Below, one piece after another: positions 18,147 to 41,811 of a stretch of DNA of 60,031 bases. Source of the stretch: Nitrospirota bacterium (GTDB lineage: Bacteria; JACPQY01); assembly GCA_016190245.1 (NCBI GenBank), contig JACPQY010000039.1:1-60031 (forward strand), in the 5' to 3' direction. A program made the translations under genes and the position numbers. The notes under the pieces are model-generated. The model did not search any database and was not told the DNA's origin. It saw only the letters and a list, made by a program, of their open reading frames with translations. Each line of letters opens with the position of its first letter. Positions within the stretch are counted from its first letter, which is position 1.

Positions 18147-19094
18147 TTGACAAGAACCGCTTGGATGCTCGCCTCGGGTACTGTGCTGGTGGCGGCAGTT
18201 CTCTCACTGGCCGTGTGGCGGACACTCGAAAAGCGGGAGGAGCCGTTCGAGGTGCGCCTCGACTCGGAGAACCTCGTGCGGCCGGGGCAAGGCGCGGAAC
18301 CGCTCCGGCTGGCCATCGCGCCCGTCCTCTCGCCGGACCTCACCGTGGAGGCCTACCAATCCCTCTCCGACTACCTCTCCGCGCGAATGCCGCGCCCGGT
18401 CCGGCTCGTTCAGCGCAAGACCTACGGAGAGGTGAACGAACTCCTGCGCCACGCCACCATCCAGGCCGCCATCATCTGCACGGGCGCCTACGTTCGCGCC
18501 CTCATGGACAACATCAAGCTCGATGTCATCGCCGTCCCCAGCTACAAGGACGGTCCGGTCTACTATTCCCTGATCGTCGTAAGGTCGGCCGATCCCGCCC
18601 GGAGCCTCAACGACCTGAAGGGCCGCAGCTTCGCGTTCACCGACCCCCTCTCCCTCAGCGGGCACTACTATGCGATCTCGGCGCTTCTGGACATGGGCGC
18701 CAATCCAGCCGCCTACTTCTCGAAAACCACATTCACATACAGCCATGACGGAAGCATGAGGGCCGTGCTGGACGGCATCGCCGACGGCGCCGCCGTGGAC
18801 AGCCTGGTGTACGAGGATATCATCCGTCGCAACCCCGGAATGGGCGAGGCGTTGCGGGTTGTCCACCGCTCCCCTCCGCTGGGCGCGCAGCCCGTGGTCG
18901 TTCCCGCCTCCCTCGACCCGACGCTCCGGGAGGGGTTCCAGAAGGCTTTCCTGGGGATATCCGACTCGGTCCGCGGCCATGTGACGGTGGAGTCGCTCGG
19001 TATCGAGCGGTTCGTCGTCCCCCCCCCCGGTCTCTACGACTCCGCCTCCCAACTCGTCGCCAAGGTGAACCGGTATCTGCAAGAGCGGAGGTAG
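18147..19094 (+). CDS. PhnD-family periplasmic binding protein, module A (AioX-like)
   Basis: 315 residues with an N-terminal hydrophobic segment (signal or anchor) and one PhnD-type substrate-binding domain: APVLSPDLTVEAYQSLSDYL, SLIVVRSADPARSLNDLKG, FAFTDPLSLSGHYY and TYSHDGSMRAV. Such proteins bind phosphonate-like or oxyanion ligands. Here the gene stands before a histidine kinase instead of a transporter, as in AioX-AioS-AioR. Cys111 (in IICTGAYVR) aligns with Cys111 of both paralogues. The TTG at 18147 is chosen because it gives the same length as the paralogues; ATG 18165 is the alternative. No ABC permease genes are nearby, which favours a sensory role. Confidence 0.82.
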   Translation: MTRTAWMLASGTVLVAAVLSLAVWRTLEKREEPFEVRLDSENLVRPGQGAEPLRLAIAPVLSPDLTVEAYQSLSDYLSARMPRPVRLVQRKTYGEVNELLRHATIQAAIICTGAYVRALMDNIKLDVIAVPSYKDGPVYYSLIVVRSADPARSLNDLKGRSFAFTDPLSLSGHYYAISALLDMGANPAAYFSKTTFTYSHDGSMRAVLDGIADGAAVDSLVYEDIIRRNPGMGEALRVVHRSPPLGAQPVVVPASLDPTLREGFQKAFLGISDSVRGHVTVESLGIERFVVPPPGLYDSASQLVAKVNRYLQERR

Positions 19095-19154
19095 GGAAGA
19101 AGGTAAACACCACCGTTGTTTCTGGGCCTGTCCTGTCGTATCTAGCAGCCTAGA

Positions 19155-20570
19155 ATGGCGTTCCTTCCGCGCCCCCCCCTCAAACTGCGGACGCGCATCA
19201 CGGCCAGCTTCGTCCTCGTCCTCTCCGTCTGGGGCCTCATCCTTGCGGCCTCCCTGGGCTACATCCTCCTCGACTCGTCCCACCGCTTCTACCGCGAGCG
19301 CGGGGTCCACCTCATCCGCGCCCTGGCCGCGCAATGCGGCCCCCTCGTGTACTACGAGGACTGGACGGGATTGGACAGCCTGTTTCAGAGCCAGATGAAA
19401 TCCATTCCGGACCTGCGATATATTGCCGTGGTGGATCCCGCCGGCGTTCCGATCTGGAGCACTTTCGCGGCGGGATTCCCCGCGGATCTCCTGGCCGTGC
19501 CGCATGACCCTCCCTCCGCCACGGCCGTCTCCTGGCGACTGGTCCAACTCAGTGGCGAACGAGTCGTTGACTATCAGGTGGAGAAGGGTCGCTTTGTCCT
19601 TCGAATGGGAATGAGCCTGGCTCCGGTGGAGCACTTGAGTCGGCGTGTCGCCCTCTACGGGGCATGCATCGGCCTCGGAGGTCTCCTGGCCGTGCTCATC
19701 ATTGCGCTCTACATAAGCCGGCCCCTTGAGGCCCTCAGTTCCACCATCGAGCGAGCGGTGCTCCTCGATCGGAAGACCGGCGGCCCGGAGGCTTTTCAAG
19801 GCACGCTCGAGACCTCGAAAATAGGGAAGCACTTTCAGGATCTCATGGATCGCCTCGAGGAGCGGACCCGCCAGCTCGATGCCGCCAAGAAGTTGGCCTA
19901 CCTCGGCGAGGTCTCCGCCACCATCGCGCACGAGATCAACAACCCGCTGGGCGTGCTGGCCATCAACTCGGAGTTCCTCGGCGAGCGGGCCCAGGCGGGA
20001 CATCTCGATCCGGAGGCGGTCGAGGAGGTCGAACGGCTCCAGATCGCCTCGAAGCGCGCCACCCTTGCCGTGCAGAAGTTCCTCCAGTTCGCCCGGTACA
20101 CCACAAAGGGTGGCGAGATGCGGCTGCGGCCGACCGCCCTGCAAACCGTCGTCCGCGAGTGCGCCCAGTTGCTCGAAGACCGCCTCCGCCTGGGCCGTCT
20201 CACGCTGAGGACGGAGATCTCTCCGAACCTCCCCCGCGTGATGTGCGACGAACAAGGCCTCCAGCAGGTCCTGTTCAATCTCCTCACCAACGCGGTGGAC
20301 GCGAGCCCCGAGGGCGGGGAGATCACGGTGCAGGTCGCTCTCGATGGCCCCGAGCTCACCCTCCAGGTGTCCGATCGGGGACAAGGCATGACGCCGGAGG
20401 CCCTCCGCCACGCTCCCGAGCCCTTCTTCACCACCAAGGAGCAGGGTCTCGGGCTCGGACTCGCCATCTCGAACACGATCGTCCTCGCCCACGGTGGGGC
20501 CCTCACGCTCGAGAATCGCCCGGGCGGAGGCGTCCTCGCGAGCGTCCGGATCCCGGTGCAAACCCTGTGA
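19155..20570 (+). CDS. Membrane histidine kinase, module A (AioS-like)
   Basis: 471 residues: membrane helix 1 (about 14-38), a periplasmic domain of about 120 residues (FYRERGVHLIRALAAQ, then KSIPDLRYIAVVDPAG, Cache-like), membrane helix 2 (about 168-190), a HAMP region, a HisKA domain with His259 in ATIAHEINNP, and a HATPase domain (NLLTNAVDAS, DRGQGM, GLGLGLAIS). The kinase would read the ligand state of the periplasmic binding protein and phosphorylate the regulator that follows. It starts 60 bp after the sensor gene and overlaps the regulator gene by four bases. Confidence 0.93.
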   Translation: MAFLPRPPLKLRTRITASFVLVLSVWGLILAASLGYILLDSSHRFYRERGVHLIRALAAQCGPLVYYEDWTGLDSLFQSQMKSIPDLRYIAVVDPAGVPIWSTFAAGFPADLLAVPHDPPSATAVSWRLVQLSGERVVDYQVEKGRFVLRMGMSLAPVEHLSRRVALYGACIGLGGLLAVLIIALYISRPLEALSSTIERAVLLDRKTGGPEAFQGTLETSKIGKHFQDLMDRLEERTRQLDAAKKLAYLGEVSATIAHEINNPLGVLAINSEFLGERAQAGHLDPEAVEEVERLQIASKRATLAVQKFLQFARYTTKGGEMRLRPTALQTVVRECAQLLEDRLRLGRLTLRTEISPNLPRVMCDEQGLQQVLFNLLTNAVDASPEGGEITVQVALDGPELTLQVSDRGQGMTPEALRHAPEPFFTTKEQGLGLGLAISNTIVLAHGGALTLENRPGGGVLASVRIPVQTL

Positions 20571-21916
20571 CCACCCCGCTCGCGAAGATCCTCCTCGTGG
20601 AGGACGACAAGGCCATGCGTGAGAGCTGCCGCCAGATCCTCCGGAAGGTTCCCTACGAGGTCATGGACGCGGCGCTGCCCAAAGAGGCCGAGGCGATCCT
20701 CCTGCGCGAAGAGTTCGATCTCGTCGTCACTGACCTCCGGATGCCCCAAGGCGGCGGCCAGGAGGTCCTTCGAGCGGCGCGCAAAGTGTCGCCCGACCTC
20801 CCCGTCATTCTGATCACGGCCTACCCTTCCGTCCAATCCGCCGTCGAGGCCTTCAAGGGAGGCGTGACCGACTACCTGACAAAGCCCTTCACGGTGGAGC
20901 AACTCCGGCAGGCGGTCCAAGCCGCCTTGCGAACGAGCCAGGCCAAGGATCGAGCCGACCTCCTGCGCCGGATGGGACCGTCCGATCCTGCCGCGCAGGA
21001 CCTCATCGGCCAGTCGCCGCGAACGCTCGCTTTCCTGTCCGAACTCAGGCGTGTGGCAAGACTCGAGGCCCACGTGCTCATCTCGGGTGAACCCGGATCC
21101 GGGAAAGATCTCGCCGCGAGAACCCTCCACCGCTTCTCGAACCGCGCCTCAGGCCGCTTCGTGGCTGCGAGCTGCGCCGCGCTGGAGGAATCGCCCCTTG
21201 CCGGAAGCGGGGACGTCCTGCACAAGGCCCTGGAACAGGCTCGAGGCGGGATTCTCTACCTGGATGAACTGAGTGATCTCGCTCCCGGCGCCCAAGCCCG
21301 ACTTCTCGGAATCCCGGACAGCCGGAGGGAAACGACCTCGCCGGCGTCAGACGTCCCTCGTCCATCGTCCGACATCAGAATCGTTGCCTCAACCCGCAAG
21401 GACCTCCTCCAAGACGTCCAAGCAGGCCGCTTCAGGGAGGACCACTACTACCGCCTCACGAGTCTCGAGATCCGGGTCCCGCCGCTTCGCGAGCGACCGC
21501 AGGACATCCCCGGGCTCGCCGTGCACTTCCTCGATCGCTTCGCCGCCGAACTGGACGCGAGGAAGATCGTGGGCCTCGGCGAGGATGCGCTCGGGCTCCT
21601 CGTGGAGCACTCGTGGCCCGGAAACGTGCGGGAGCTTGCGAATGTCCTTCGCAACGCGGTTGCGCGCGCTACGGGCCCCCTCATTACGAAAGAAGATCTT
21701 CTGGAGACCGGGGCGCTCGCTCGCGAAGCCGGCGCGGCGGACGAGCCCGCCTCGCCGAGACGCTCCGCGCTCGACGACTACGAGCGCAAGTACCTCGCCG
21801 GCATGCTCGCGAGCCACTCTGGAAATGTCACGCAGACCGCGCAGGCGCTCGGCATCCATCGAACCACACTGCAGCGCCTGATGAAAAAGTTCGGCATCGC
21901 CGGCTCCGGGCGATAG
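20567..21916 (+). CDS. NtrC-like response regulator, module A (GAFTGA loop absent)
   Basis: 449 residues. Receiver domain with phospho-acceptor Asp56 in VVTDLRMP; AAA+ region with Walker A GEPGSGKD and Walker B ILYLDE; C-terminal Fis-type helix-turn-helix (NVTQTAQALGIHRTTLQRL). The sigma54-contacting GAFTGA loop is missing: the sequence runs from the second strand directly to the Walker B region, so it may act without sigma54. GTG 20567 overlaps the kinase stop (GTGA). The next gene is the eight-haem lipoprotein, whose upstream region holds two TGCTGC-N6-GCAGCA dyads, the presumed binding sites. Confidence 0.9.
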   Translation: MTTPLAKILLVEDDKAMRESCRQILRKVPYEVMDAALPKEAEAILLREEFDLVVTDLRMPQGGGQEVLRAARKVSPDLPVILITAYPSVQSAVEAFKGGVTDYLTKPFTVEQLRQAVQAALRTSQAKDRADLLRRMGPSDPAAQDLIGQSPRTLAFLSELRRVARLEAHVLISGEPGSGKDLAARTLHRFSNRASGRFVAASCAALEESPLAGSGDVLHKALEQARGGILYLDELSDLAPGAQARLLGIPDSRRETTSPASDVPRPSSDIRIVASTRKDLLQDVQAGRFREDHYYRLTSLEIRVPPLRERPQDIPGLAVHFLDRFAAELDARKIVGLGEDALGLLVEHSWPGNVRELANVLRNAVARATGPLITKEDLLETGALAREAGAADEPASPRRSALDDYERKYLAGMLASHSGNVTQTAQALGIHRTTLQRLMKKFGIAGSGR

Positions 21917-22157: not shown

Positions 22158-22175
22158 TGCTGCATACATGCAGCA
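22158..22175. promoter_or_regulatory. TGCTGC-N6-GCAGCA dyad 2
   Basis: TGCTGC-ATACAT-GCAGCA, extended to 20 bp by flanking C and G (CTGCTGCATACATGCAGCAG). It is the upstream one of two copies before the eight-haem gene. Confidence 0.65.
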
Positions 22176-22345: not shown

Positions 22346-22359
22346 TTGACGGCTGTCAT
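22346..22359 (+). promoter_or_regulatory. CRP/FNR-like site 3 (TTGACGGCTGTCAT)
   Basis: TTGAC-N4-GTCAT, 148 bp before the eight-haem cytochrome start and downstream of the two dyads. Confidence 0.5.
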
Positions 22360-22507: not shown

Positions 22508-24502
22508 ATGATGAAGGGAATCGGCGGTTGGTTGCTTGCGATCACGTTGCTCGCCCTGCCGGGCGTCATCGGTTGCGGCGAAGACGATGAGGAAACGACG
22601 GAGGTCGTGAAACCCGCGACCAAGATCGAGTTCTTCGTGAAGGACGCCGCCGGGAACGCCATCGAGGGCGCGACGGTGAGTGTCGAAGGGCAGGCGGCCA
22701 CGGCGACGACGGACGCGACCGGCGCCTTCAAGCTCGAAGGCCTCTCCGGAGACATGGTGTTTCTGAGGGCCAAAGGTCCCGGCTCTTCTTATCTCGAGGG
22801 CGGAACAAGACACGAGGCCGTGGAAGTGGAAAACGGTGCGCTCGCCGAATCGGTCACGATAAATTTGTCGTCCCGACCGTCCGACTCCGCCAAGTACGTC
22901 GGGGGGACGCAGTGCGGCGCCTGCCACACCACGCAGGCTGCCGACGAAGGCGGCTCCGCCCACGCTCATTCGATCACACCCGATAAAACCCGGATGATCA
23001 GCAAGGACCTGTGGCCTGCGGTGGGCGCCACGAAAGATACGAAGTTCACCGCCCTGGACCCCACCGATGCGACCGGGAAGATTTCGGTGGCCGTCGTCCT
23101 GTGCCAGCCCTCCGCCGGCGACTACCAGATGAAGTTCGGTGGGACGGCGGATTGTTCGGTCACCACCGACGGCACGTTTGTTCCGGTGTCCGGAACGTAC
23201 GGCGGCGAAGGTGACGGCGGGATCGCGAACACGCCGAACTTGGGCAAGTTCAAACAACGGTACCTGGCCAAGCTCTCGGATGTTCCCCTCGCGGCCTCAT
23301 GGACCTACACGGCCGGCAAAGACAAGGACTATCTGATCCTGCCCATCCAGATCACGCAGTCCGGCGACGGATCGCCCAAACTGGGCAAGTATCACGAGAC
23401 GGACTGGACCGGCCGGGGCCGCACCTTCTCGCGGAAGTGTTCGGGGTGTCACAACACGGGACTGGAGATTTCATGGGAGAAGGCCTCCGGCAAGAGTTAC
23501 ATTGAATCCTACAATTACCTGGACCTGAACATCACCTGCGAAATCTGCCACGGGCCCGGTTCGGAGCACATCGCCGCGCCGACCGAGAAGAGAAAACTGA
23601 CGATCATCACCCCCCGGAACCTGACCGCTGAAGCCACAAGCCAGATTTGCGGCGCGTGCCACTCGGGTGACGATGGATCGAGCAAAGATCCCGATGGCGC
23701 CTTCGGTTTCGCCTACAATGCCGGGAACGCCTCCAAGGTCGGCGGGGGCCATTTCGTCCCCGGGGTCTACGACCTGAAGGACTACATCAAAGGGTTCATG
23801 GTCCTTGAGAAAGACGGCGGCGCCTTCAACGCGTGGCCGGACGGCAAGCATGGTCTGGCGCACCGGCAGCAATATCCGGAGTTGGCGGCCTCCAAGCACT
23901 GGAGCAACTCCGAGGAGAAACTCTCGTGCGTGAGCTGCCACAATCCTCACACCCTGTATCAGGGCCCGAAGAAGTTCGAGGAAGAGATGGGGAAGGATGA
24001 GTACGTGCTTGAAACCCCGACGTTCAAGAACAACGTGCTCTGCCTCGGATGCCATGCGGGCGATGGGCCATACACGAGCCTGACCAAGGACAGCGTGGCG
24101 GCCGCCCACGTCGCCGCGGGCGGGAAAGCCACCAAGAACGGCGCAGCCGTGGCTGGCGATGCCGCGGCCGCAACCGCCGTCGCCGATGCCGTCAAGAACC
24201 ACATGAAAGACAAGGTTCCCGGCATGGGCGCCACGTACGATCCGACAAACGACGCCAAGCCTGTCGGACGCTGCCAGTCGTGTCACATGCCCAAGACCGG
24301 AAAGTCCGGAGGCTACACGACGGGCAAGGACGCCGCGGGCAACTCGGCGCTCGTCTCGGGCGACCAGGGTTCCCACGTGTTCGACGTGATCAAGTTCGAG
24401 ACCTCGAGCGCACTCAAGAAGGCCTCGGGGGGCGCGGACACGGACATCATGCCGAACTCCTGCGGAGGCTGCCACGCCAACTTCCTGATCAGCGGCGACT
24501 GA
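22508..24502 (+). CDS. Eight-haem cytochrome c lipoprotein with carboxypeptidase-regulatory-like domain, module A
   Basis: 664 residues. Lipobox LPGVIGC near residue 23; a beta-sandwich of the CarboxypepD_reg type at about residues 38-110 (FFVKDAAGNAIEGATVSV, then TTDATGAFKLEGL); then eight CXXCH sites (CGACH, CSGCH, CEICH, CGACH, CVSCH, CLGCH, CQSCH, CGGCH) in a multihaem c554-like region. The role is electron transfer or reduction at the cell surface or in the periplasm; no substrate can be named. It is the nearest target of sensor module A, which ends 590 bp upstream. A hairpin with a T-run follows the gene. Confidence 0.85.
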   Translation: MMKGIGGWLLAITLLALPGVIGCGEDDEETTEVVKPATKIEFFVKDAAGNAIEGATVSVEGQAATATTDATGAFKLEGLSGDMVFLRAKGPGSSYLEGGTRHEAVEVENGALAESVTINLSSRPSDSAKYVGGTQCGACHTTQAADEGGSAHAHSITPDKTRMISKDLWPAVGATKDTKFTALDPTDATGKISVAVVLCQPSAGDYQMKFGGTADCSVTTDGTFVPVSGTYGGEGDGGIANTPNLGKFKQRYLAKLSDVPLAASWTYTAGKDKDYLILPIQITQSGDGSPKLGKYHETDWTGRGRTFSRKCSGCHNTGLEISWEKASGKSYIESYNYLDLNITCEICHGPGSEHIAAPTEKRKLTIITPRNLTAEATSQICGACHSGDDGSSKDPDGAFGFAYNAGNASKVGGGHFVPGVYDLKDYIKGFMVLEKDGGAFNAWPDGKHGLAHRQQYPELAASKHWSNSEEKLSCVSCHNPHTLYQGPKKFEEEMGKDEYVLETPTFKNNVLCLGCHAGDGPYTSLTKDSVAAAHVAAGGKATKNGAAVAGDAAAATAVADAVKNHMKDKVPGMGATYDPTNDAKPVGRCQSCHMPKTGKSGGYTTGKDAAGNSALVSGDQGSHVFDVIKFETSSALKKASGGADTDIMPNSCGGCHANFLISGD

Positions 24503-25568: not shown

Positions 25569-25582
25569 TTGACCGCTGTCAT
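25569..25582 (+). promoter_or_regulatory. CRP/FNR-like site 4 (TTGACCGCTGTCAT)
   Basis: TTGAC-N4-GTCAT, 73 bp before the preferred start of the GH106-like gene that leads module B. It suggests that the whole four-gene operon shares the control of the cytochrome genes. Confidence 0.5.
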
Positions 25583-25654
25583 GACGACGACGGGCCTCGC
25601 CTGTGCGATACTGTGCGGACGGGAAGATACGCGACGGGTGCGCCCGTGAGTCGA

Positions 25655-28042
25655 ATGCGGGCGGGATGGTCGGCCGGCCTCCTCCTTCTGGCGGCCGCGG
25701 GCTGTGGCGGCCGCACATCGTCACAAGCGGAAACCGACCTCGCGCTTTTCGACCTCGATCGGTGGCAGTCACCGCCTTCCGCCTTCAGACCCTATTTCCG
25801 CTGGTGGTGGCCGGGCGGGAACGTGGAAGCCAATGAACTGGAAAGGGAACTCCGCCTCTTCACCGAGCAGGGCTTCGGCGGCGTCGAAATCCAACCGCTG
25901 ACTCTGCGCATCCCCCCCCCGGACCGGGAAGATCCGGCCGTCCTTTCCGTCGGTACGGATGCGTACGTACAGCGCCTCCAGACCGTCTGCCGCCTCTCCC
26001 GCGAACTCGGCCTGGCCGTGGACGTGACGTTCGGATCGAGTTGGCCCTCGGGCGGCCCGTTCGTCAGGGAGGGCGCGGCGCGCCAACTCACGATGTCCAC
26101 CCACGCTCCGGCGGGGCCGACCCGGCAGCCCTGGCCACCCCCACCGTCCCGTCCCCCGAACTCCCGGCGCTTCCTGCGATCGAGCGGACCGGTCGCCTTC
26201 CTCGAGAGCGAACTCCTGATCCCCGTGGACAAGCAGGAGATCCTTCTCGCCGTCACCGCAGCCCGGTCTTCCACCCCCCCCGGCCGTGACCCCATCCTCG
26301 AAGGTTTCACCGACCTCACTTCCCGCATCTCCGGCGACAAGGTTGCCTGGGAAGTCCCCGAGGGAAACTGGATCCTGTTCGCCTTCTACGAGAACGCCGT
26401 GGGCCATGAGGTGCCGGGCGCCGCCTATCCCACAACCGAGGGAAGCGCGCTCGTCGCCGATCATCTGGGGCCCCTCGGCGTGCAGGACCTCATTCGCGGG
26501 TTCGGAGAGGCGGTCGCCGACGGACTCCACGCCTGCGACGGCGGACTCCCCCGGAGTCTGTTCATCGACAGCTTCGAATTGATCGCCGAACTCCCATGGA
26601 CCCGCGCCTTTCTTGACGAGTTCAGCAACCGCAAGGGCTACGATCTCCGACCCTACCTGCCTCTTCTCTTCCGCGAGACGGGCGAGGTGTTCTTTCTCCA
26701 GGATCCCCCTTCCATGCCCCTGTTCAGAGCCCCGGGCGTGGACCGCCGCGTGCGCGAGGACTACGAAGACGTCCGAAGCCGCCTGTTCATCGAGAACTTC
26801 CTCGAACCGCTGGCGCGCTGGACCGCGAACGAAGGCATGACCTTGCGGGTGCAGGCTCACGGCGCGTGGGCGGACTATCTCGACGCCTACCAGATCGCGC
26901 ACATCCCCGAGACGGAACAGCTCTACGCCCGCGGCGAGTACGACTTCCTCAAACTCGCCTCGTCCGCCGGTCACGTGAAAGGCCGGCCCTTCGTTTCCGC
27001 GGAGACCTTCGTCGGACCGGGCGCCCTCCGCGGGCTTTCCCTGGAGGACTTCTACCGCGCGGCCGGCTCCGTGATGTCGGCCGGGGTGAACCGCATCGTT
27101 CACCACGGATACCCCTACCGCTACGTGAAGCCGAACGGCTCGCCGTGGCACCCGTTCGACCTCGGCGGTGGCGGTGGCGCACAGAGCTGGAGCGACGAGA
27201 ACCATCCGGTCTGGCCGCACTTCCGCGCGCTCAACGCCTACATCGCGCGCCTCTCCTACGCCCTGACCGTGGGGAAGAACGAGGCCGACGTCGCCTGGCT
27301 CCACCCCGAGGCGAGGTACCCCGGAAACGGCCGGGGTGGCGGGACTGAGTCGGCCGTCATCGAGGGGCTCGGCCTCACCTTCGACCGCGTCAGCCGTCAC
27401 GACCTGGAAGGCGTCCGGGTCGAAAAGAACCGAATCCGGATCGGGGCGGCGGAGTACAGGGCCCTGCTCATCTCCAACCTGGAGAGTGCCGCGCCGGAGC
27501 TCATGGAAGCGATCGAACGCGTGGCCCGATCGGGCACGCCGGTCTTCGTGCTCGGCGGTCTGCCCCGGCGGGCGACCGGTTGGGCTGAGCGGGAAGCGCG
27601 CGACGCCCGGGTGGCTGAGATCGCACTCGGGCTCGAAGACCGGGTGATCCAGGTCGCGAGTGCGGATGGGCTCGCCGAGGCCGTGAGAAACTCCGGGATC
27701 GAGCCCCCTCTTCGAGCGGCCGTCGCCACCTTCCCCTTCCGGATCGTCCACCGATCGGCGCCGAATGCCGAGGTCTTCGTCCTCTTCAATGTCACCCGGT
27801 TCGATCGGTCGGATCTGCTCTCCCTCCCCAACGGCGACGGCCCCATCCATCTCCTCGATCCACGAACCGGGGACGTCCGCGAGCTCGACGTGTCTTCCGC
27901 CGGCGGCGATCGCCCGCGCTTCAGGGTCGGCATCCCCGCCGACCGGGCCGCCGTCCTTCTCGTCGGCTATGACGACCAAGGCGCATCTGGCCGTTCGTCC
28001 CCCGATCGTGTAGCTTTCATGGAGAAATCACCGGCACCATGA
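25655..28042 (+). CDS. Glycoside hydrolase family 106-like lipoprotein
   Basis: About 795 residues. A lipobox (LLLLAAAGC) near residue 14 marks a lipoprotein. The N-terminal part RPYFRWWWPGGNVEANELER and GFGGVEIQPL is typical of GH106 (alpha-L-rhamnosidase-like) proteins, as is the central HHGYPYRY segment. GH106 enzymes remove rhamnose from polysaccharides, but the substrate here is unknown. The stop overlaps the module B sensor start (ATGA), so a sugar-active lipoprotein is translationally coupled to a signalling system, which is odd. ATG 25655 is chosen for the compact signal; GTG 25646 and 25613 are alternatives. Confidence 0.78.
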   Translation: MRAGWSAGLLLLAAAGCGGRTSSQAETDLALFDLDRWQSPPSAFRPYFRWWWPGGNVEANELERELRLFTEQGFGGVEIQPLTLRIPPPDREDPAVLSVGTDAYVQRLQTVCRLSRELGLAVDVTFGSSWPSGGPFVREGAARQLTMSTHAPAGPTRQPWPPPPSRPPNSRRFLRSSGPVAFLESELLIPVDKQEILLAVTAARSSTPPGRDPILEGFTDLTSRISGDKVAWEVPEGNWILFAFYENAVGHEVPGAAYPTTEGSALVADHLGPLGVQDLIRGFGEAVADGLHACDGGLPRSLFIDSFELIAELPWTRAFLDEFSNRKGYDLRPYLPLLFRETGEVFFLQDPPSMPLFRAPGVDRRVREDYEDVRSRLFIENFLEPLARWTANEGMTLRVQAHGAWADYLDAYQIAHIPETEQLYARGEYDFLKLASSAGHVKGRPFVSAETFVGPGALRGLSLEDFYRAAGSVMSAGVNRIVHHGYPYRYVKPNGSPWHPFDLGGGGGAQSWSDENHPVWPHFRALNAYIARLSYALTVGKNEADVAWLHPEARYPGNGRGGGTESAVIEGLGLTFDRVSRHDLEGVRVEKNRIRIGAAEYRALLISNLESAAPELMEAIERVARSGTPVFVLGGLPRRATGWAEREARDARVAEIALGLEDRVIQVASADGLAEAVRNSGIEPPLRAAVATFPFRIVHRSAPNAEVFVLFNVTRFDRSDLLSLPNGDGPIHLLDPRTGDVRELDVSSAGGDRPRFRVGIPADRAAVLLVGYDDQGASGRSSPDRVAFMEKSPAP

Positions 28043-28986
28043 ACCAACGCCAGTATGCGCTCACCCTTGCCCCGGCCGTCGTGGGCGTGGGAATCCTGCT
28101 GGGGACCGGCTGGTTTCTGAACGTCGGGGAGAAGGCGATCGACGTCCGGATGGATTACTCGGTGTCCGAGCGCGACAGCGCGGACGCCCCCCCCTATCGC
28201 GTGGCCGTCGGTCCAATTCTTTCCCCCAACCGGACGGCACACGACTATGAACTTCTGACCAACTATCTTGAGAACCGGCTCTCTCATCCGGTTCGACTGA
28301 TTCAACAGAAGACCCATGCCGAAGTGAACGAACTCCTTCGTAACGGGGCCGTGCAGGTGGCCTTGCTCTGCCCAGGTGCCTACGTCCGCGCCAAGGAGGT
28401 GAATCTTCCGATCGAGAATATCGCGGTCCCCGTCTATGACGATGGGCCTGTCGACCGCGCCCTGATCGTCGTCCGCGCAAACCGACCGGCCCGAACAGTC
28501 AGGGAACTCAAAGGCTACGCCTTCGCGTACACGGACACGCTCTCTCTCGCCGGCTACTACTACCCGTTGTTCCGCTTGCTGAGTCTCGGCATCGAACCGC
28601 AGGGCTTTTTTTCACGGACGACGTTCACGCACAGCAGCGACGGAAGCCTGGAGGCCGTGGCGAGCGGCGTGGTGGATGCGGCGGCGGTGGACAGCCCCAC
28701 CTACCGGCGCGAAACACATCGCAATCCCTCGCTACGGGATGCACTCCAAGTCATCGATACCTCTCCGCTCCTTGGCGCGCCGCCGGTGGTCGTTCCGACG
28801 ACCGTGAGTGCCTACCTTCGGGGTCGGCTCCAGAAAGCGTTTCTGGTCATGGACAAGATCCCACGGGGCAGGAAAGCCTTGGAGGCCATGGGAGTCCTGA
28901 GGTTCGAGGTCCCAACCCCCTCTCTCTACGATTCTGCGAGGGAGATACATGACAGGGTGGATGCCTACCTGGAGGGGGAAAAATAG
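28039..28986 (+). CDS. PhnD-family periplasmic binding protein, module B (AioX-like)
   Basis: 315 residues, the same length as the other two paralogues. N-terminal hydrophobic segment, then a PhnD-type domain: VGPILSPNRTAHDYELLTNY, RALIVVRANRPARTVRELKG, FAYTDTLSLAGYYY and THSSDGSLEAV. Cys111 lies in ALLCPGAYVRA. It starts within the stop of the GH106-like gene and precedes a histidine kinase. The role is ligand sensing for the kinase, inferred from the AioX-like order. Residues around the pocket differ from modules A and C (for example CPG against CTG), so the ligand may differ. Confidence 0.82.
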   Translation: MNQRQYALTLAPAVVGVGILLGTGWFLNVGEKAIDVRMDYSVSERDSADAPPYRVAVGPILSPNRTAHDYELLTNYLENRLSHPVRLIQQKTHAEVNELLRNGAVQVALLCPGAYVRAKEVNLPIENIAVPVYDDGPVDRALIVVRANRPARTVRELKGYAFAYTDTLSLAGYYYPLFRLLSLGIEPQGFFSRTTFTHSSDGSLEAVASGVVDAAAVDSPTYRRETHRNPSLRDALQVIDTSPLLGAPPVVVPTTVSAYLRGRLQKAFLVMDKIPRGRKALEAMGVLRFEVPTPSLYDSAREIHDRVDAYLEGEK

Positions 28987-29039
28987 CACGGGACGCTGTC
29001 CGGCTGCGGACGCGCATCACCGCCTCCTTCGTCGCGTAC

Positions 29040-31392: not shown

Positions 31393-31547
31393 AACGGGGC
31401 CTTTTCCCTCTGTGGGACATTCCACGCGAATGGGACGGCGCTCACCGCACACTCCAGCCTGCGCACACCTCGCCCCTCCGGGCTGCAGGCGCTCCGAAGG
31501 AACGGCCAACGGCGGTGGCCCCGCGGACAACACTAAGGAGGTTCGCA

Positions 31548-34112: not shown

Positions 34113-34163
34113 TCGGCGCGGGAGACCGCCCACGCCTCGATAGAGTTCAGTCCCTCCCGGAAT

Positions 34164-34196
34164 CCCCCTTCCTGCGAAGGGGGGTTTCACTTTTTG
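34164..34196 (+). terminator. Terminator after the decahaem gene
   Basis: Perfect 8-bp stem CCCCCTTC/GAAGGGGG (34164-34171 and 34176-34183) with loop CTGC, followed by a gTTTcacTTTTT tract. It closes the module B transcription unit. Confidence 0.8.
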
Positions 34197-35128: not shown

Positions 35129-36076
35129 ATGAGCCCTCGCAAGCAGATCCTCACACTCGGGGTAGCCACTGCCGCCGCAGCCCTCATCCTCTCGGCATGG
35201 TGGACGGCCCGCTCCGAAGAGGAGCCGATCGAGGTGCGGCTCGACTCGGCCGATGTGGTCCCGCATGAGGCCACCACCCCGCCTTTCAGGCTGGCCGTGA
35301 CCCCCCTCGTCTCCCCTTTGACCACGGTCGAGCGATATGAACCTCTGCAGGATTACTTGGCCGGTCGCTTGGACCGCCCGGTACGACTGATCCAAAAGAA
35401 GACGTATGGCGAGATCAACGAGCTCCTGCGCCACGGCGCCGTCCAGGCCGCGGTGATCTGTACCGGCGCTCTCCTGCGCGCCCGGAAAGAGGAAATCCCG
35501 CTGGATGTCGTGGCGGTGGGCATCCATCCGCCGGAAGCCGCCACGCGTTCTCTCATCGTGGTCCGAGCGGATGTGCCGGCAACGTCCCTCGCGGATCTCC
35601 GTGACCGGGCGTTCGCCTTCACGGATCCGTCCTCCCTGATCAGCCACTACTACACGCTCTCCTGGCTGCTCGATCACGGCATCGAACCGCGGGACTTCTT
35701 CTCCCGCACGGTATTCACTCACGGACACGACAGCAGCCTGGATGCGGTGCGGGACGGCGTGGCGGACGCGGCAGCGGTGAACAGTCGCGTCTTCGACGAG
35801 GCCGCGCGCCGCGACCCGAGTCTCGCCAAGGCTTTGCGCGTGATTCAGGTATCGCCCCCACTCGGGGGCCGCCCCGTGGTTGTGCCCGCATCAAGCGATC
35901 CGGCCCTACGGGAACGAATCCGTCAGGTCTTCCTCCAGATGGCGTCCACGCCGGAGGGGGAGAAAACCCTGGACACCCTGGGTTTCGTTCGCTTCGACCC
36001 GCCCTCGCCCGAGCAGTATGGGGCGGCGCCGGAGATCCTCGCGAAAGTCGATGCCTACCTCCAGCGAGAGAAGTAG
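35129..36076 (+). CDS. PhnD-family periplasmic binding protein, module C (AioX-like)
   Basis: 315 residues with an N-terminal hydrophobic segment and a PhnD-type domain: TPLVSPLTTVERYEPLQDYL, SLIVVRADVPATSLADLRD, FAFTDPSSLISHYY and THGHDSSLDAV. Cys111 is in VICTGALLRA. It is closer to module A than to B in these motifs (for example EEPxEVRLDS near the N-terminus in both). The gene overlaps the kinase gene by 26 bases. As for A and B, the absence of transporter genes and the linked kinase point to sensing rather than uptake. Confidence 0.83.
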   Translation: MSPRKQILTLGVATAAAALILSAWWTARSEEEPIEVRLDSADVVPHEATTPPFRLAVTPLVSPLTTVERYEPLQDYLAGRLDRPVRLIQKKTYGEINELLRHGAVQAAVICTGALLRARKEEIPLDVVAVGIHPPEAATRSLIVVRADVPATSLADLRDRAFAFTDPSSLISHYYTLSWLLDHGIEPRDFFSRTVFTHGHDSSLDAVRDGVADAAAVNSRVFDEAARRDPSLAKALRVIQVSPPLGGRPVVVPASSDPALRERIRQVFLQMASTPEGEKTLDTLGFVRFDPPSPEQYGAAPEILAKVDAYLQREK

Positions 36077-37487
36077 CACGCGGCGGCCCCCCAAGCTCAG
36101 GACTCGGATCACGGTCTCGTTTTTCCTGCTCCTCGTCCTCTGGAGCGGCCTCCTCCTTGCGGCATTCACGTACATGCAGTGGCAGTCCTCGCGTCGGTTC
36201 TACCGCGAGCAGGAAGGCGTCCACCTCGTGAGATCGCTGATGACGGAGTGCCTTCCCCTCGTCCTCTACGACGATCTCTCGGGCCTCGCGAGCCTCTTCG
36301 ATCAACAGATGAAATCCATTCCCTACACGCGCTACGTGGCCGTGCTGGACTCGGAGAACCGCCCCGTCTGGAGCACGTTTCCCAACGGCGTCCCGGCGGA
36401 CCTGCTGGGGGTGCGACACGAATCGCAGCCCGACGGCGACGTGTCCGTCAGGCTGATCCGAACCGAAAGCGGGCTGACGTACGACTACGAAACCAAGCGG
36501 AGCGGCATCACGCTTAGGCTGGGCCTGAGCCTCGCGCCCATTCAAGCGTTCATGCGCCGCACCTACACCTTCGCGGCCGCCGCCGGCGCGGTCGGCCTCG
36601 TGGCCGTGCTGGGCATGGCCCTCTACGTGAGCCGCCCGCTCGAACGGCTCAGCCGGACGATCGAGCGTGCCGTGCTGCTCGACCGCGATACGGGCGGCCC
36701 CCCACTGAGGGGAGACACACTCGAAGCCTCCACGATCACCCGGGGATTCGAAGAGCTGATGGATCGCCTCGAGGCCCGGACGCGGCAGCTCGACGCCGCA
36801 AAGAAACTCGCCTACCTCGGCGAAATCTCCGCCACCATCGCCCACGAGGTCAACAACCCCCTCGGAATCCTGACGATGAACGCGGAATTCCTGTCCCGCC
36901 GGATCGGGGCCGGGGAGATCGGCGCCGGCGCCGCCACGGAGGTCAAGAGAATGGAGGCCGCGTCCAAGCGAGCCACACTCGCCGCGCAGAAACTCCTCCA
37001 ATTCTCGAAGTATGCGACACGCCACGATCAGGTCCGGTTTCGCCCCACCGACCTGGGCCCGCTGGTCCGGGATTGCCTCGACCTGATGGACGAACGGCTC
37101 CGTCTCGCGAGATGCACGCTGCGCGCGGAAATCCCTGCGGACCTCCCGAAGGTGACCTGCGACGAGCAGGGTCTCCAGCAGGTGCTGTTCAACCTCGTGA
37201 CCAATGCCGTGGATGCCAGTCCCGATGGGAGCGAGATCACCGTCTCGCTTGCGCTCAACAGCGAGGAGCTGATGCTGCGCGTGTCCGATCGGGGGAAAGG
37301 AATGAGCGAGGAGGTGCTCCGGCGCGCCAAGGAACCCTTCTTCACGACCAAGGAGCAGGGGCTCGGGGTCGGGCTGGCCATCTCCAACTCCATCGTCCTC
37401 ACGCACAAGGGAACGCTCACCCTTGAACAACGTCCGGGCGGTGGGGCCATCGCGACCGTCCGACTTCCCATGGAAATGGCCTCATGA
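36051..37487 (+). CDS. Membrane histidine kinase, module C (AioS-like)
   Basis: 478 residues: short N-terminus, membrane helix 1 (about 20-45), Cache-like periplasmic region (FYREQEGVHLVRSLMTE, KSIPYTRYVAVLDSEN), helix 2, HAMP, HisKA with His265 in ATIAHEVNNP, HATPase (NLVTNAVDAS, DRGKGM, GLGVGLAIS). ATG 36051 lies within the end of the sensor gene and keeps the full charged N-terminus of helix 1. An upstream in-frame extension is rejected as read-through of the sensor gene in another frame. The stop overlaps the regulator start (ATGA). Confidence 0.92.
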   Translation: MPTSSERSSTRRPPKLRTRITVSFFLLLVLWSGLLLAAFTYMQWQSSRRFYREQEGVHLVRSLMTECLPLVLYDDLSGLASLFDQQMKSIPYTRYVAVLDSENRPVWSTFPNGVPADLLGVRHESQPDGDVSVRLIRTESGLTYDYETKRSGITLRLGLSLAPIQAFMRRTYTFAAAAGAVGLVAVLGMALYVSRPLERLSRTIERAVLLDRDTGGPPLRGDTLEASTITRGFEELMDRLEARTRQLDAAKKLAYLGEISATIAHEVNNPLGILTMNAEFLSRRIGAGEIGAGAATEVKRMEAASKRATLAAQKLLQFSKYATRHDQVRFRPTDLGPLVRDCLDLMDERLRLARCTLRAEIPADLPKVTCDEQGLQQVLFNLVTNAVDASPDGSEITVSLALNSEELMLRVSDRGKGMSEEVLRRAKEPFFTTKEQGLGVGLAISNSIVLTHKGTLTLEQRPGGGAIATVRLPMEMAS

Positions 37488-38839
37488 CTCCCCCCCCGAA
37501 GATCCTCCTCGTGGAGGACGATGAGGGCATGCGTGAGACCTGCCGGCAAGCCCTTGAGCGAGCGCCCTACACCGTGCTGGGCGCCGCCTCGCCCGTGGAA
37601 GCGGAACCCATCCTCCTTCGTGAAGAACTCGACCTCGTTGTAACGGATCTCCGTATGCCCCACGGGGGAGGCCAGGAGGTCCTGCGCGCAGCCCATCGTG
37701 TTTCGCCGGGCCTCCCCGTTATTCTCATCACCGCCTATCCCTCCGTCGAGTCTGCCGTCGAAGCCTTCAAGGGAGGCGTCGTGGACTACCTGACCAAGCC
37801 CTTCACCGGCGACCAACTCCTCGATGCCGTGGGAAGCGCACTGCGGGCCAGCCACGCCCGAGACCGCGCCGACCTCCTGCGCCGCACAAATCCCACCGAC
37901 TCGCTCCTGCCCGAATGGATCGGCGATTCACCCGCGATGCGCGCGCTCATGGCCGAGGTCCGCCGACTGGCAACAGTGGAGGGAAATGTCCTCATCCTCG
38001 GCGAAATCGGATCGGGTCGAAGGATGGCCGCCCGCGCCCTTCACCGATTCTCCAGGCGGTCACCAGTCCCTCTCGTCGAGGTCACATGCACCGGAACCGA
38101 CACTCCCCCCTTCGAACCGGAACCTTTTCGCCTGCTTCGCCGCGTGGCTCTCAGGAAGGGCGATGTCACGCCGGGCCTTTTCGAACAAGCGGAGGGCGGC
38201 GGCCTCTTCCTGGCCGAAGTCGGAGATCTCTCCGTTGAGGCCCAGGCAAACCTCCTTCTCGCCATGGAACGGGTCACGCCCCGCAAGGCCGACGTAAGGG
38301 TCCTCGCCTCCACCTCCCGTGACCTGTCCCACGAAGTCCGCACCGGGCGTTTCCGCGAGGATACCTTGCGTCGGCTCAGACAGATCGAGCTGCCTGTCCC
38401 GCCCCTCCGGGAACGCACCGACGACATCCCGCGACTGGCGCTCCACTTCCTCGATCGGTTCGCGAAGGAGAACAGCAAGATCCCCGTCGAGGCTTTCACG
38501 GACGACGCGCTCTCCCTCCTGGTCGAACACCCGTGGCCCGGGAATGTGGATGAACTCCGCAACACCGTCCTGAAAGCCGTTGCACACGCCACAGGATCTT
38601 TCATCTCTGCCGAAGATCTGCGTCGCGGCGCGGGGCTCGCCACGCCTTCCCAAGCCCAGAGAAAAACGCCGCACCCGCGCGAAGCGGTCCTCGGCCACTA
38701 CGAAAAGAGCTACCTCGTCCGCATGCTCGAACAGAACGGCAGCAACATCACGCACACCGCCCGCGCCCTCGGTATCCACCGCACCACCCTGCAGCGGCTC
38801 GTGAAGAGGTACGGCATCCCTACTCCCTCGCGCGAGTAA
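37484..38839 (+). CDS. NtrC-like response regulator, module C (degenerate AAA+ domain)
   Basis: 451 residues. Receiver with Asp55 in VVTDLRMP; an AAA+ domain of normal length but with a broken Walker A (GEIGSGRR, Lys lost) and Walker B (LFLAEVGDL, Asp replaced by Ala), and no GAFTGA loop; C-terminal Fis-type helix-turn-helix NITHTARALGIHRTTLQRL. It should neither hydrolyse ATP nor drive sigma54, so DNA binding controlled by phosphorylation is the likely mode. The recognition helix matches module A. The nine-haem cytochrome gene follows 347 bp downstream, with a TGCTGC-N6-GCAGCA dyad between. Confidence 0.9.
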   Translation: MTPPPKILLVEDDEGMRETCRQALERAPYTVLGAASPVEAEPILLREELDLVVTDLRMPHGGGQEVLRAAHRVSPGLPVILITAYPSVESAVEAFKGGVVDYLTKPFTGDQLLDAVGSALRASHARDRADLLRRTNPTDSLLPEWIGDSPAMRALMAEVRRLATVEGNVLILGEIGSGRRMAARALHRFSRRSPVPLVEVTCTGTDTPPFEPEPFRLLRRVALRKGDVTPGLFEQAEGGGLFLAEVGDLSVEAQANLLLAMERVTPRKADVRVLASTSRDLSHEVRTGRFREDTLRRLRQIELPVPPLRERTDDIPRLALHFLDRFAKENSKIPVEAFTDDALSLLVEHPWPGNVDELRNTVLKAVAHATGSFISAEDLRRGAGLATPSQAQRKTPHPREAVLGHYEKSYLVRMLEQNGSNITHTARALGIHRTTLQRLVKRYGIPTPSRE

Positions 38840-38866
38840 AGAGCCCCACCGGCCGAGGGCCCCGGA

Positions 38867-38961
38867 AGGATCGATTCTCATCGATCCGCGAGTGGACCTG
38901 CCGATCGATCCGGCTGCGGACCGAGGGCGTAGAACGCCCCGCGGTAGGAATCGGCCCCTAC
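38867..38961. repeat. GATTCTCATC-type dispersed repeat, copy 2
   Basis: Starts aggatcgattctcatcgatc, continues with GATCGAT palindromes and ends ggtaggaatcggccccta. It shares its core with 10721-10774 and 48091-48289. Confidence 0.4.
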
Positions 38962-38989
38962 CCGAACCCCAGCCCACCTCCCCCACCCC

Positions 38990-39015
38990 TCGCTGCTGCA
39001 CAAACGCAGCAGCGA
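38990..39015. promoter_or_regulatory. TGCTGC-N6-GCAGCA dyad 4 (arms extended to 10 bp)
   Basis: TCGCTGCTGC and GCAGCAGCGA around the spacer ACAAAC; the core TGCTGC-N6-GCAGCA is at 38994-39011. It ends 7 bp before CRP/FNR-like site 6. Confidence 0.65.
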
Positions 39016-39021
39016 CCCGCG

Positions 39022-39035
39022 CTGATACCTGTCAT
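39022..39035 (+). promoter_or_regulatory. CRP/FNR-like site 6 (CTGATACCTGTCAT)
   Basis: CTGAT-N4-GTCAT, 151 bp before the nine-haem gene. The following bases (CACACGCCCCTT) match those after site 1. Confidence 0.45.
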
Positions 39036-39186
39036 CACACGCCCCTTCGCCATGTGACAGGGTGCACGTGTATGGAAATTCGCACGCGTACCGCGCTAGG
39101 GCCTGCGGCTCACTGGGACGCTTCTGCGCCCATGACTCATGTCGCATGTCCCATGGCTCCGTAGGGAACGAAAGGAGACGACTGTC

Positions 39187-41811
39187 ATGACAAACACCGC
39201 TCACAATCACCATCAAGGGATCCTGAAAAGGATTGTGGCCAGCGCAGGGCTTCCAGCCTCGCTCATGGCAACCCTTCTCCTCGCCGCATGCTCGGAGGAC
39301 ATAAGCACCGGAACTCTCAAGGGCAAGGTCACGAACAGCATCTCGGGCGGCGCGGTGGCGAACGTGGAAATCACCCTCGATCCGCCGCCCAATGGGCCGG
39401 TCGAGTCGAAACCGGGCGAAACCCCAAAGCCGGACATCGTGACGGATTCCGCGGGCGCTTTCGAGATCGATTTGCCCGTGGGAACCTACACGCTCAAGAT
39501 CAAACGCTCCTTCTTCAAGGCCCCTTCCCCGGACGTCACGGCCTCGGTCCTGCCCAACGACACGGTGGATAAGAGCTTCAAGCTCACACCCGAGAAATCG
39601 GTGGGCATCGAGATCAAGGAGCAGAAAGGCGAGTACGGCGCTTCGATCGAGATGAAGGCCACGGTCGAGATCCTCGACGGATCGAGCCTGGCCAGTATGA
39701 AGTGGACGCAGACAAGCGGCCCCGCCGTCTCTCTCTCCGGAGCGGACTCCGAGACCGTGTCGTTCAATCTCCCCGACGCGGCCGCGAGCAAGGCGAAACT
39801 CGTCTCGATCCTCAAGGTGCCGGATCGCGCGCTTGTCCAGGCCATTGACCCTCATTCCCTGGATTCGGCCACTGCGGTCAAGGTCAAACTCACGGTCGTC
39901 ACCTCCATCAGCAGCGGCTCCGCCGAGGGCGTCGCACGGATCGAGAAACCGGCCTTCGAGACGACACTGGGCATCGGTAATGTTCCCGTCGGAATTCCCG
40001 TTCTTCTCCACGCGAAGAAGGGGAGCGGCTACAGTTGGTCGCTCACCACTCCCGGCGGATCGGCCGCGCTCGATGACGCAGGCAGTCAGAACCCGGCCTT
40101 CACGCCGGACACGGCAGGCCAGTACGTCGCGAAGGAGAACAACAGTGGCGCGACCCTCAACATCTACGCCGGGAACTGGCAGGGCGCGATCACCGGCCGA
40201 GGGGCGGATGGCCGGCCCAATGCCGATCAATGCACGACCTGCCACAACAACAGCATCGCGCCGGACAAGTTCACGGCCTGGAAGAAATCGGGTCATGCCG
40301 AGATCTTCACCAACAACGTGAACACCTCCGCCTCCTACAAGGAGACGTGTCTCGAATGCCACTCGGTCGGCTACGACAAGAACGTGAGCAACGGCGGCGT
40401 GGACGAAGCCGCCGATTTCCAATCCTTCATTGACGCGAAAGTACTCGGCAGCGCCAAACCGACCAACTGGGATACGGTGCTCGCGACCTACCCCGCCACG
40501 GCCAGGATGGCAAACATCCAGTGCGAGAGCTGCCACGGGCCCAACGGGACCGCGCTCCACAACAACAGCAAGAGCGATGCGGAGCGCGTCAGTCTCGCCT
40601 CCGGCGTCTGCGGCAAGTGCCACGGCGAGCCGCCTTCCCACGGGCGGTATCAGCAGTGGGAGGAGAGCAAGCACGGCGACTACGAGCTGGCGCTCGCCCA
40701 GGCCACCGTGGAAGGCCGCGGAGCCACGGCCGGCCACTGCGGGCGCTGTCACTCCGCCCAGGGCTTTCTGGCATGGACCAGCCAGGGCGACTTGACCAAG
40801 CAGATCCAGGGCGCGAATGGCAACGCCACCGTGGACGAACTAAAGGCCTTGGGTATGACAAAAGACTCGGTCCAACCCCAGACCTGCGTGGTCTGCCACG
40901 ATCCCCACGCACAAGGCACCACCTCCGGAGAGCCCAACACCGCCACCGTGCGGATCGAAGGGAACACCGGCATGCTGCCTGCCGGCTTCGAGGCAAAAGA
41001 CGTCGGCCACGGCGCGCTGTGCATGACATGCCACAACTCGCGCAACGGCCTGCGCAACGACTCCGTGGCTGTCACGGCCTACTCGGCCCCCCATGCGGCC
41101 TGCCAGACGGACGTGTTCATGGGCCAGAACGCCTACTTGGTCAACGTAGGCACACCATCGAAGCACGCGCTCGTCAAAGACACCTGCACGAGTTGCCACA
41201 TGGTTCAAACCGACCCCCCCAAGGAATACAGTCGTGACTCCCGAGGCACGAACCACGCATTCGAAGCAGATGGGAAGATCTGCTCGAACTGCCACGGCAA
41301 CAAGGACACGAACGCCTTCGTGGACATGAAGGTGCTCCAGGGGGCGGCTGAGGAAGAACTCAAGGGGCTGGCCGCCAAGATGGCCTCCTACCTGACCGGG
41401 AAGCTCCCGGATACGTTCTACGTCAAGGACTACATGCCTCACTCGTACAACGGCAAGGACTACGACGTGAAGAGCTCCACGGTGACGCTCACCAAGAACA
41501 ACATCGCGTCGCTCGAGTCCACGGAGCCCCACGGACAGCAGGGCTTCTTCGTGAACCTCAAGAACGCGGTCACGGTCAGCTACACTCCGACCGGCGAATC
41601 GGCCCACACGATGTCGGTGACCAAGCTCGAGGTCCAGCTCGGCGATTTCTACTCGGACTCCGCAGGAACGACGAAGGTCATCGCCGTCACGGACAACCTC
41701 GTGAAGGCCGGCTGGAACTACTTCCTCCTCCATGCCGGGAGCGCGGAAGGCGTCCACAACCCCACCTTCACGTGGGATGTGATCGAGGCGTCGATGGCGG
41801 CGCTCAACTAG
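39187..41811 (+). CDS. Nine-haem cytochrome c lipoprotein with beta domains, module C
   Basis: 874 residues. Lipobox LLLAAC near residue 35. Residues about 42-130 form a carboxypeptidase-regulatory-like beta-sandwich (GTLKGKVTNSISGGAVANVE, DSAGAFEIDLPVGTYTLKI); about 145-330 holds two further Ig/PKD-like regions. Nine CXXCH sites follow (CTTCH, CLECH, CESCH, CGKCH, CGRCH, CVVCH, CMTCH, CTSCH, CSNCH). The last 140 residues are haem-free and strand-rich. The likely role is extracytoplasmic electron transfer; the terminal acceptor is unknown. It is the probable target of module C. A 13-bp stem follows the gene. Confidence 0.85.
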   Translation: MTNTAHNHHQGILKRIVASAGLPASLMATLLLAACSEDISTGTLKGKVTNSISGGAVANVEITLDPPPNGPVESKPGETPKPDIVTDSAGAFEIDLPVGTYTLKIKRSFFKAPSPDVTASVLPNDTVDKSFKLTPEKSVGIEIKEQKGEYGASIEMKATVEILDGSSLASMKWTQTSGPAVSLSGADSETVSFNLPDAAASKAKLVSILKVPDRALVQAIDPHSLDSATAVKVKLTVVTSISSGSAEGVARIEKPAFETTLGIGNVPVGIPVLLHAKKGSGYSWSLTTPGGSAALDDAGSQNPAFTPDTAGQYVAKENNSGATLNIYAGNWQGAITGRGADGRPNADQCTTCHNNSIAPDKFTAWKKSGHAEIFTNNVNTSASYKETCLECHSVGYDKNVSNGGVDEAADFQSFIDAKVLGSAKPTNWDTVLATYPATARMANIQCESCHGPNGTALHNNSKSDAERVSLASGVCGKCHGEPPSHGRYQQWEESKHGDYELALAQATVEGRGATAGHCGRCHSAQGFLAWTSQGDLTKQIQGANGNATVDELKALGMTKDSVQPQTCVVCHDPHAQGTTSGEPNTATVRIEGNTGMLPAGFEAKDVGHGALCMTCHNSRNGLRNDSVAVTAYSAPHAACQTDVFMGQNAYLVNVGTPSKHALVKDTCTSCHMVQTDPPKEYSRDSRGTNHAFEADGKICSNCHGNKDTNAFVDMKVLQGAAEEELKGLAAKMASYLTGKLPDTFYVKDYMPHSYNGKDYDVKSSTVTLTKNNIASLESTEPHGQQGFFVNLKNAVTVSYTPTGESAHTMSVTKLEVQLGDFYSDSAGTTKVIAVTDNLVKAGWNYFLLHAGSAEGVHNPTFTWDVIEASMAALN

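Follow-up and report, generated by a model that had tools for sequence, protein, structure and literature searches.

Three paralogous ArrX/AioX-type sensor modules beside multihaem lipoprotein cytochromes in a Nitrospirota bacterium

The periplasmic binding protein AioX holds its ligand with the residues Tyr88, Cys106, Tyr131, Ser161, Ser163, His192 and Asp210 (PMC5908839). AioX, ArxX and ArrX have these residues in common despite their differing ligands, and the pocket cysteine is reported to be absent from PhnD (PMC5908839). The regulator of the AioXSR system, AioR, acts at a sigma-54 promoter (PMC6011840, PMC7533571). Here we describe a stretch of 60,031 nucleotides, called the window, which is one entire contig (JACPQY010000039.1) of a Nitrospirota bacterium (GCA_016190245.1). 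It carries three triads of a PhnD-like periplasmic binding protein (X), a membrane kinase (S) and a regulator (R), each standing ahead of a large lipoprotein cytochrome that we name by its haem count (Cyt8, Cyt10 and Cyt9). This arrangement is real and unusual. We think it fairly probable that an ArrX/AioX-type regulator was duplicated, recruited to an electron-transfer island, changed its ligand and came to act independently of sigma-54.

All twelve genes of the original prediction, three times X, S, R and cytochrome, are present on the forward strand in the order it gave, with 8, 10 and 9 CxxCH motifs in the three cytochromes. Set 1 starts with X1 (18147–19094; start TTG at 18147 or ATG at 18165), followed by the histidine kinase S1 (19155–20570; HisKA and HATPase_c, 64% identical to the ortholog in the sister genome), the NtrC-like regulator R1 (20567–21916; receiver and HTH_8 domains, Walker A intact, no GAFTGA loop) and the octahaem lipoprotein Cyt8 (22508–24502). 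Set 2 comprises X2 (28039–28986), the histidine kinase S2 (28983–30488; HisKA and HATPase_c, with no in-frame ATG, GTG or TTG before 29040), R2 (30485–31345) and the decahaem lipoprotein Cyt10 (31515–34112, start possibly 31548). In set 3 we find X3 (35129–36076), the histidine kinase S3 (36051–37487; HisKA and HATPase_c, its ATG at 36051 overlapping the end of X3), the NtrC-like R3 (37484–38839), which also lacks GAFTGA, and the nonahaem lipoprotein Cyt9 (39139–41811, start possibly 39187). The S and R genes overlap in all three sets, with GTGA at 20567 and ATGA at 30485 and 37484. The gaps from regulator to cytochrome amount to about 590 bp in set 1, 170–200 bp in set 2 and 300–350 bp in set 3; they do not imply co-transcription, and the cytochromes may have promoters of their own. 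A strong terminator-like hairpin lies 3' of Cyt10 at 34159–34188, in a hairpin scan that overall gave no excess over shuffled sequence.

All three binding proteins carry the PF12974 domain (E-values of 2e-52, 1e-52 and 4e-59 for X1, X2 and X3). Among the solved structures compared, each matches ArrX best (9e-53, 1e-45 and 1e-44) and AioX second (2e-28 for X1), while transport proteins match far more weakly, at best PtxB with 3e-13, HtxB with 3e-11 and PhnD with 1e-14. The assignment to the ArrX/AioX type by sequence comparison is firm. It bears out the kind of system that had been proposed, although the nearest solved member is ArrX, whereas AioXSR and ArxXSR had been named. The PhnD-like proteins are also not tied to transporters: X, S and R are contiguous, without the permease and ATPase genes that go with PhnD/PtxB transport binding proteins, and no transporter genes were seen beside any of the five genomic PF12974 genes. 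The one on contig C33 has a kinase behind it, after which the contig breaks off.

The ligand pockets differ between the three copies. The X1 pocket reads YCYSSHD in both of the genomes that make up our comparison within the phylum, the window genome (G000) and the sister genome (G001), which belongs to a second genus; it thus has all seven AioX residues, and X1 probably senses an oxyanion of arsenic or a similar one. X2 reads HCDSASD in the window, keeping three of the seven, and HCYSASH in G001, and X3 reads YCTSIHN and keeps four of the seven. The positions C106 and S161 are retained in all three proteins. The changes Y88H, S163A and H192S in X2 are common to both genera, and the comparison of X2 with its sister ortholog gave a ratio of nonsynonymous to synonymous substitution (dN/dS) of 0.18 at a dS of 0.85. 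Because the changes are shared under purifying selection, it is more likely that the X2 pocket was changed than that it decayed. With the cysteine kept and three or four of the seven positions altered, X2 and X3 probably bind a ligand different from that of X1, which fits the earlier idea of different ligands for the three modules.

The regulators have departed from the NtrC type to different degrees. An NtrC-like regulator had been expected in each triad, which holds for R1 and R3, while R2 with 286 amino acids consists of a receiver, an AAA lid and a Fis helix-turn-helix (HTH) and lacks the AAA+ core; it has the same form in G001. By alignment, none of R1, R2, R3 and the two G001 regulators contains GAFTGA, whereas 54 X-adjacent regulators of the relatives do. 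Within a ten-member clade of the X tree described below, the motif is intact in L160 and in one L051 copy, and the loop decays stepwise to GAFTGV in L050, GAFAGA in the other L051 copy, QAIPGA in L052 and GDDTNA in L157. The lineage of the window goes further: the loop is gone, R3 has lost its Walker motifs (degenerate Walker A, GEIGSGRR, and Walker B, LFLAEV) and R2 its AAA+ core. Receiver and HTH are intact in R2 and R3. RpoN is present in both genomes, and no sigma-54 site (TGGCAC-N5-TTGC, at most one mismatch) was found upstream of the island genes. The loss of GAFTGA and of the R2 core leads us to propose activation without sigma-54, which would then proceed through another sigma factor. 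Additionally, the recognition helices of the three regulators are nearly identical (IHRTTLQRLMKK, IHRVTLQRLMRK and IHRTTLQRLVKR), which predicts overlapping DNA targets; the three probably converge on one regulon rather than serving one cytochrome each.

The sister genome holds much of this island. One G001 contig end carries three multihaem cytochromes, a molybdoenzyme operon and X1-S1-R1, and another carries Cyt8-X2-S2-R2-Cyt10-Cyt9 and then a NirK-like gene, which follows in the window too. Island proteins are 58–75% identical between the genera (Cyt9 73%), and dN/dS is 0.13–0.21 for X2, S2 and R2. The expectation that the cassettes are conserved together in relatives therefore stands for triads 1 and 2 and the three cytochromes, which recur in order, and fails for triad 3: in G001, Cyt10 directly precedes Cyt9. 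This recurrence in a second genus puts the pattern beyond chance. We did not treat the two G001 contigs (C12 and C16) as one proven locus, since their 71-base end overlap is a repeat with nine copies and the join is backed by synteny alone. The dispersed repeat, around GTAGGGGAGCATCTTCAGATGCTCCC, occurs at nine places in G001, several of them at the ends of contigs, and both edges of the split island carry it. A candidate fourth triad on G000 contig C68 (L036) was not counted. The last 6 kb there (13942–19978) are 99.93% identical to C16 of G001, the match starts at a dispersed repeat, and orthologs elsewhere show about 75% DNA identity between the genomes; we treat the segment as a chimera, a misbinning or a recent transfer.

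Trees of the sensors, kinases and regulators show that the three triads are paralogous, as had been claimed. X1, X2, X3 and the G001 orthologs group with L050, L051, L052, L157 and L160 in the ten-member clade (SH-like approximate likelihood ratio test, SH-aLRT, 99), in which X2 and X3 are sisters (94). The five regulators likewise form one clade (97/96), with R2 and R3 as sisters (97/94) and R1 apart. The kinases form one clade (80/97) whose inner order is not resolved. Agreement between the X and R trees indicates that duplication took in whole triads and preceded the divergence of the two genera, so triad 3 would later have been lost from G001 or moved.

For wider relatives, we scanned genome contigs with the X alignment and obtained 161, of which 80 were kept; the scan with X2 alone gave none. 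A scan of 392 genomes of Planctomycetota, the phylum of L052, gave matches in 11. The scan patterns came from the query alignment, which could bias the yield towards certain pocket types. Where flanking DNA was sufficient, most triads adjoin a molybdoenzyme of the TtrA/ArrA/PhsA kind. The near ortholog of module 1, L050, is an example, with X-S-R, a tetrahaem cytochrome, a molybdoenzyme (43% identical) and an iron–sulfur (FeS) subunit (60%). The search for the gene order in other genomes also found triads beside multihaem cytochromes, in Planctomycetota. The triad of L052 stands beside 13- and 10-haem cytochromes and that of L166 beside a 10-haem cytochrome, the 10-haem protein having an MtrC domain in both cases, while those of L160 and L162 stand beside cytochromes with 8 and 10 haems. 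None of these four has a molybdoenzyme in reach; several of the cytochrome-linked contigs are short, and a molybdoenzyme may lie further away. In L157 a molybdoenzyme stands on one side of the triad, with two multihaem cytochromes and an MtrB/PioB porin on the other. The density of cytochromes with at least eight haems is about 1.8 per 100 kb up to 6 kb from X (17 cases) versus 0.7 per 100 kb at 6–10 kb (three cases), which is a weak enrichment.

Pocket and neighbourhood were compared in 57 relatives with a clear neighbourhood. The pocket YCYS[ST]HD is found in 45 of the 48 molybdoenzyme-linked relatives and is altered in seven of the nine cytochrome-linked ones without a molybdoenzyme (Fisher p 1.5e-5, ignoring kinship). 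One of the two cytochrome-linked exceptions, L101, sits on a contig that is cut where its relatives have the molybdoenzyme. It belongs to a recurrent operon form of Desulfobacterales and Deltaproteobacteria (L068, L079, L081, L101 and L110), with X, a regulator-labelled protein of about 740 amino acids that is larger than a lone NtrC regulator, an 11-haem cytochrome, an FeS subunit and the molybdoenzyme that is cut off in L101. The original prediction knew of no described system in which a sensor triad is repeated beside cytochromes. Repetition alone is not unique, as it is also found in two Chloroflexi and one genome of the Planctomycetota search. In these (L077, L083 and L158), a pair of X-S-R triads lies close to a single molybdoenzyme, either in tandem or a short way apart; the Chloroflexi pair has short, LuxR-type-looking regulators.

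The three cytochromes contain no CxxCK or CX3-4CH haem motifs beyond CxxCH, and by eye their N-termini show lipobox-like VIGC, FAGC and LAAC for Cyt8, Cyt10 and Cyt9. Cyt8 is distantly similar to OcwA (6i5b; E 4e-15, residues 297–598), a cell-surface terminal reductase of Thermincola potens (PMC6703420). The match spans about 300 residues; OcwA has a nonahaem NrfA-like fold, and Cyt8 differs from it in having eight haems instead of nine, an N-terminal CarboxypepD_reg domain and a lipoprotein signal. Cyt10 is OmcA/MtrC-like. It scores 92 bits with PF22113, above that model's own cut-off, and matches TIGR03507 with E 1e-52 and 179.6 bits, below the cut-off of 209.3; it resembles OmcA/MtrC in its PF22113 domains, ten haems and lipoprotein nature and differs in the sub-cut-off TIGR03507 score and in that no MtrB/PioB porin was found in the genome. 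Cyt9 has Cytochrome_C7 and MtrC II/IV Pfam domains. It also shows similarity to c554 and, weakly, to PKD-like domains, and by sequence no relative of solved structure was found for it. The predicted structures of Cyt8 and Cyt9 reached a confidence (pLDDT) of only about 30. From the lipoboxes and the OcwA/MtrC-type matches, the cytochromes would be located at the cell surface.

Triad 1 lies directly downstream of a molybdoenzyme operon (13285–17858) on the same strand. The operon encodes a TtrA-like molybdopterin oxidoreductase (13285–16536), an FeS subunit (16547–17140) and a TorD-like chaperone (17052–17858), named by operon position and similarity to the chaperone-position reading frames of related operons, with an uncertain start. 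The oxidoreductase stays below all curated cut-offs, with 374.5 bits for TtrA (cut-off 1750) and 160 bits for ArrA (cut-off 1600). No ArrA above cut-off was found in either genome, and no Aio, Arx or Arr enzyme next to the triads. The two genomes have molybdoenzymes of only 24% identity at this position (1083 amino acids and TtrA-like in the window, 913 and PhsA-like in G001, L039:5464–8205), so the enzyme was replaced and triad 1 retained. Divergent from this operon, three large multihaem cytochromes lie on the minus strand (6738–12122) with 16, 11 and 9 CxxCH; one cytochrome of the set is NapC/NirT-like and another cytochrome b561-like, and they are likely the entry of electrons from quinol to the periplasm. 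Beyond the triads, 44277–47183 encodes a copper nitrite reductase–cytochrome c fusion (TIGR02376, above cut-off), then an FGE-sulfatase-like and a SCO1/SenC protein; the sister genome has these conserved as well. A GH106-like gene (alpha-L-rhamnosidase family, 25613–28042), which the sister genome lacks, shares four bases with the start of X2, and just upstream of this gene lies a PIN-like reading frame, recognised by eye.

The window has four copies of the palindrome TGAC-N4-GTCA, all of them intergenic: TGACCGCCGTCA (12405–12416) upstream of the molybdoenzyme operon, TGACCCCCGTCA (18098–18109) upstream of X1 and as an identical 12-mer before X1 of G001, TGACGGCTGTCA (22347–22358) upstream of Cyt8 and TGACCGCTGTCA (25570–25581) upstream of the GH106-X2-S2-R2 unit. 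Dinucleotide shuffles gave a mean of 0.85 and reached four in one of 100 cases, a test that overstates the significance since the palindrome was found by looking. G001 has exact copies upstream of X1, Cyt8, X2, Cyt10 and NirK, and a copy with one mismatch before the molybdoenzyme. These positions support a common control of the units, by a protein that the palindrome itself does not specify. Its form also fits a CRP/FNR-type site, and a regulator of this type is as likely as R1–R3 themselves. The palindrome is only a possible operator of R1–R3, given its genome-wide frequency and its absence at the Planctomycetota triads.

Put together, the whole X-S-R unit would have been duplicated twice inside an electron-transfer island. 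Copy 1 would have kept the ancestral setting and pocket behind the TtrA-like molybdoenzyme operon, while copies 2 and 3 would have been recruited to large lipoprotein cytochromes, with changed pockets and the cysteine kept. Ligand-bound X would act on S, S would phosphorylate R, and R would activate the cytochrome and molybdoenzyme promoters without sigma-54. In this scheme we infer the ligands, the regulon, the phosphotransfer, the promoters and the extracellular role of the cytochromes. Several points weigh against it. X3 lacks an ortholog in G001. The link between pocket and neighbourhood, once relatedness is counted, comes down to five independent pairs and is not significant, and thus is only suggestive. 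No MtrB/PioB porin that would carry electrons across the outer membrane was recognised in either genome. The palindrome is frequent in the rest of both genomes (48 and 83 sites), was not seen at the Planctomycetota triads and may belong to another regulator. A stronger version, which we hold only tentatively and regard as rather doubtful, is that the ligand of X2 and X3 is not an arsenic oxyanion and that their sigma-54-independent regulators, once phosphorylated, turn on cell-surface multihaem cytochromes directly. At least two phyla would then share a control of extracellular respiration that is triggered by a binding protein.

The original prediction gives every triad a ligand of its own and a single target, the cytochrome that follows. 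The order X-S-R-cytochrome in three of three window cases, the three different pockets and the differing domain content of R2 and R3 speak for such private pairs, but G001 has two triads for three cytochromes, with Cyt8 directly before X2, and triad 1 adjoins the molybdoenzyme, as in most relatives. Together with the nearly identical recognition helices and the palindrome common to several units, this leaves the private pairing unsupported, and we judge it unlikely. The locus could also be an ordinary arsenic island, with all triads sensing arsenate or arsenite and the cytochromes serving arsenic respiration or its electron supply. Kinship with ArrX/AioX, the cysteine conserved in all three X and the intact X1 pocket would agree with this. 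Yet the molybdoenzyme falls far under the ArrA cut-off, neither genome has an ArrA above it, X2 and X3 have lost several oxyanion-binding residues, and the similarity of two cytochromes is to OmcA/MtrC and OcwA, which makes an arsenic island similarly improbable. Finally, triads may have been copied within a redox island as neighbours without regulatory meaning, copies 2 and 3 being drifting remnants that regulate little. The lost R2 core and R3 ATPase motifs and the missing triad 3 of G001 are what such drift would leave, but the low dN/dS of X2, S2 and R2, the intact receiver and HTH, the same R2 form in both genera and the recurrence beside cytochromes in Planctomycetota make it very unlikely. 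We consequently keep to duplication, recruitment and change of ligand as the favoured reading.

Little is known about how bacteria choose their cytochromes for extracellular respiration. Should our reading be right, a family of sensors known from arsenic molybdoenzymes has found a second use with surface cytochromes. The change of ligand could then be tested, and the dependence on sigma-54 can be seen to fade in steps. With the conserved cysteine and the altered pocket positions as a guide, ligand binding by purified X1, X2 and X3 can be measured directly. Among the papers that a search of the open-access literature gave, with subscription papers not covered, none joins AioX or ArxX with MtrC, OmcA or multihaem cytochromes.

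Among known regulators, the NtrC-family protein of PDB 5m7n, which we take to be Brucella NtrX, also lacks GAFTGA in the alignment, as R1–R3 do, while sensors and context differ. The receiver and Fis HTH of R2 resemble RegA/PrrA, and an ActR/PrrA model matches R3; R2, unlike these proteins, retains the AAA lid as a relic. With AioXSR and ArxXSR, the window modules have in common the X family, the pocket cysteine, the three-gene form and an NtrC-derived regulator. They differ from them in that AioR acts at a sigma-54 promoter, while the window regulators lack the contact loop and no Aio or Arx enzyme is adjacent. ArrXSR (ArrX of Chrysiogenes arsenatis, PDB 6x6b) shares the X family, the X-S-R order without transporter genes and the X1 pocket. 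In the window, by contrast, no ArrA reaches the cut-off, the X2 and X3 pockets are altered, GAFTGA is lost, and cytochromes adjoin the triads.

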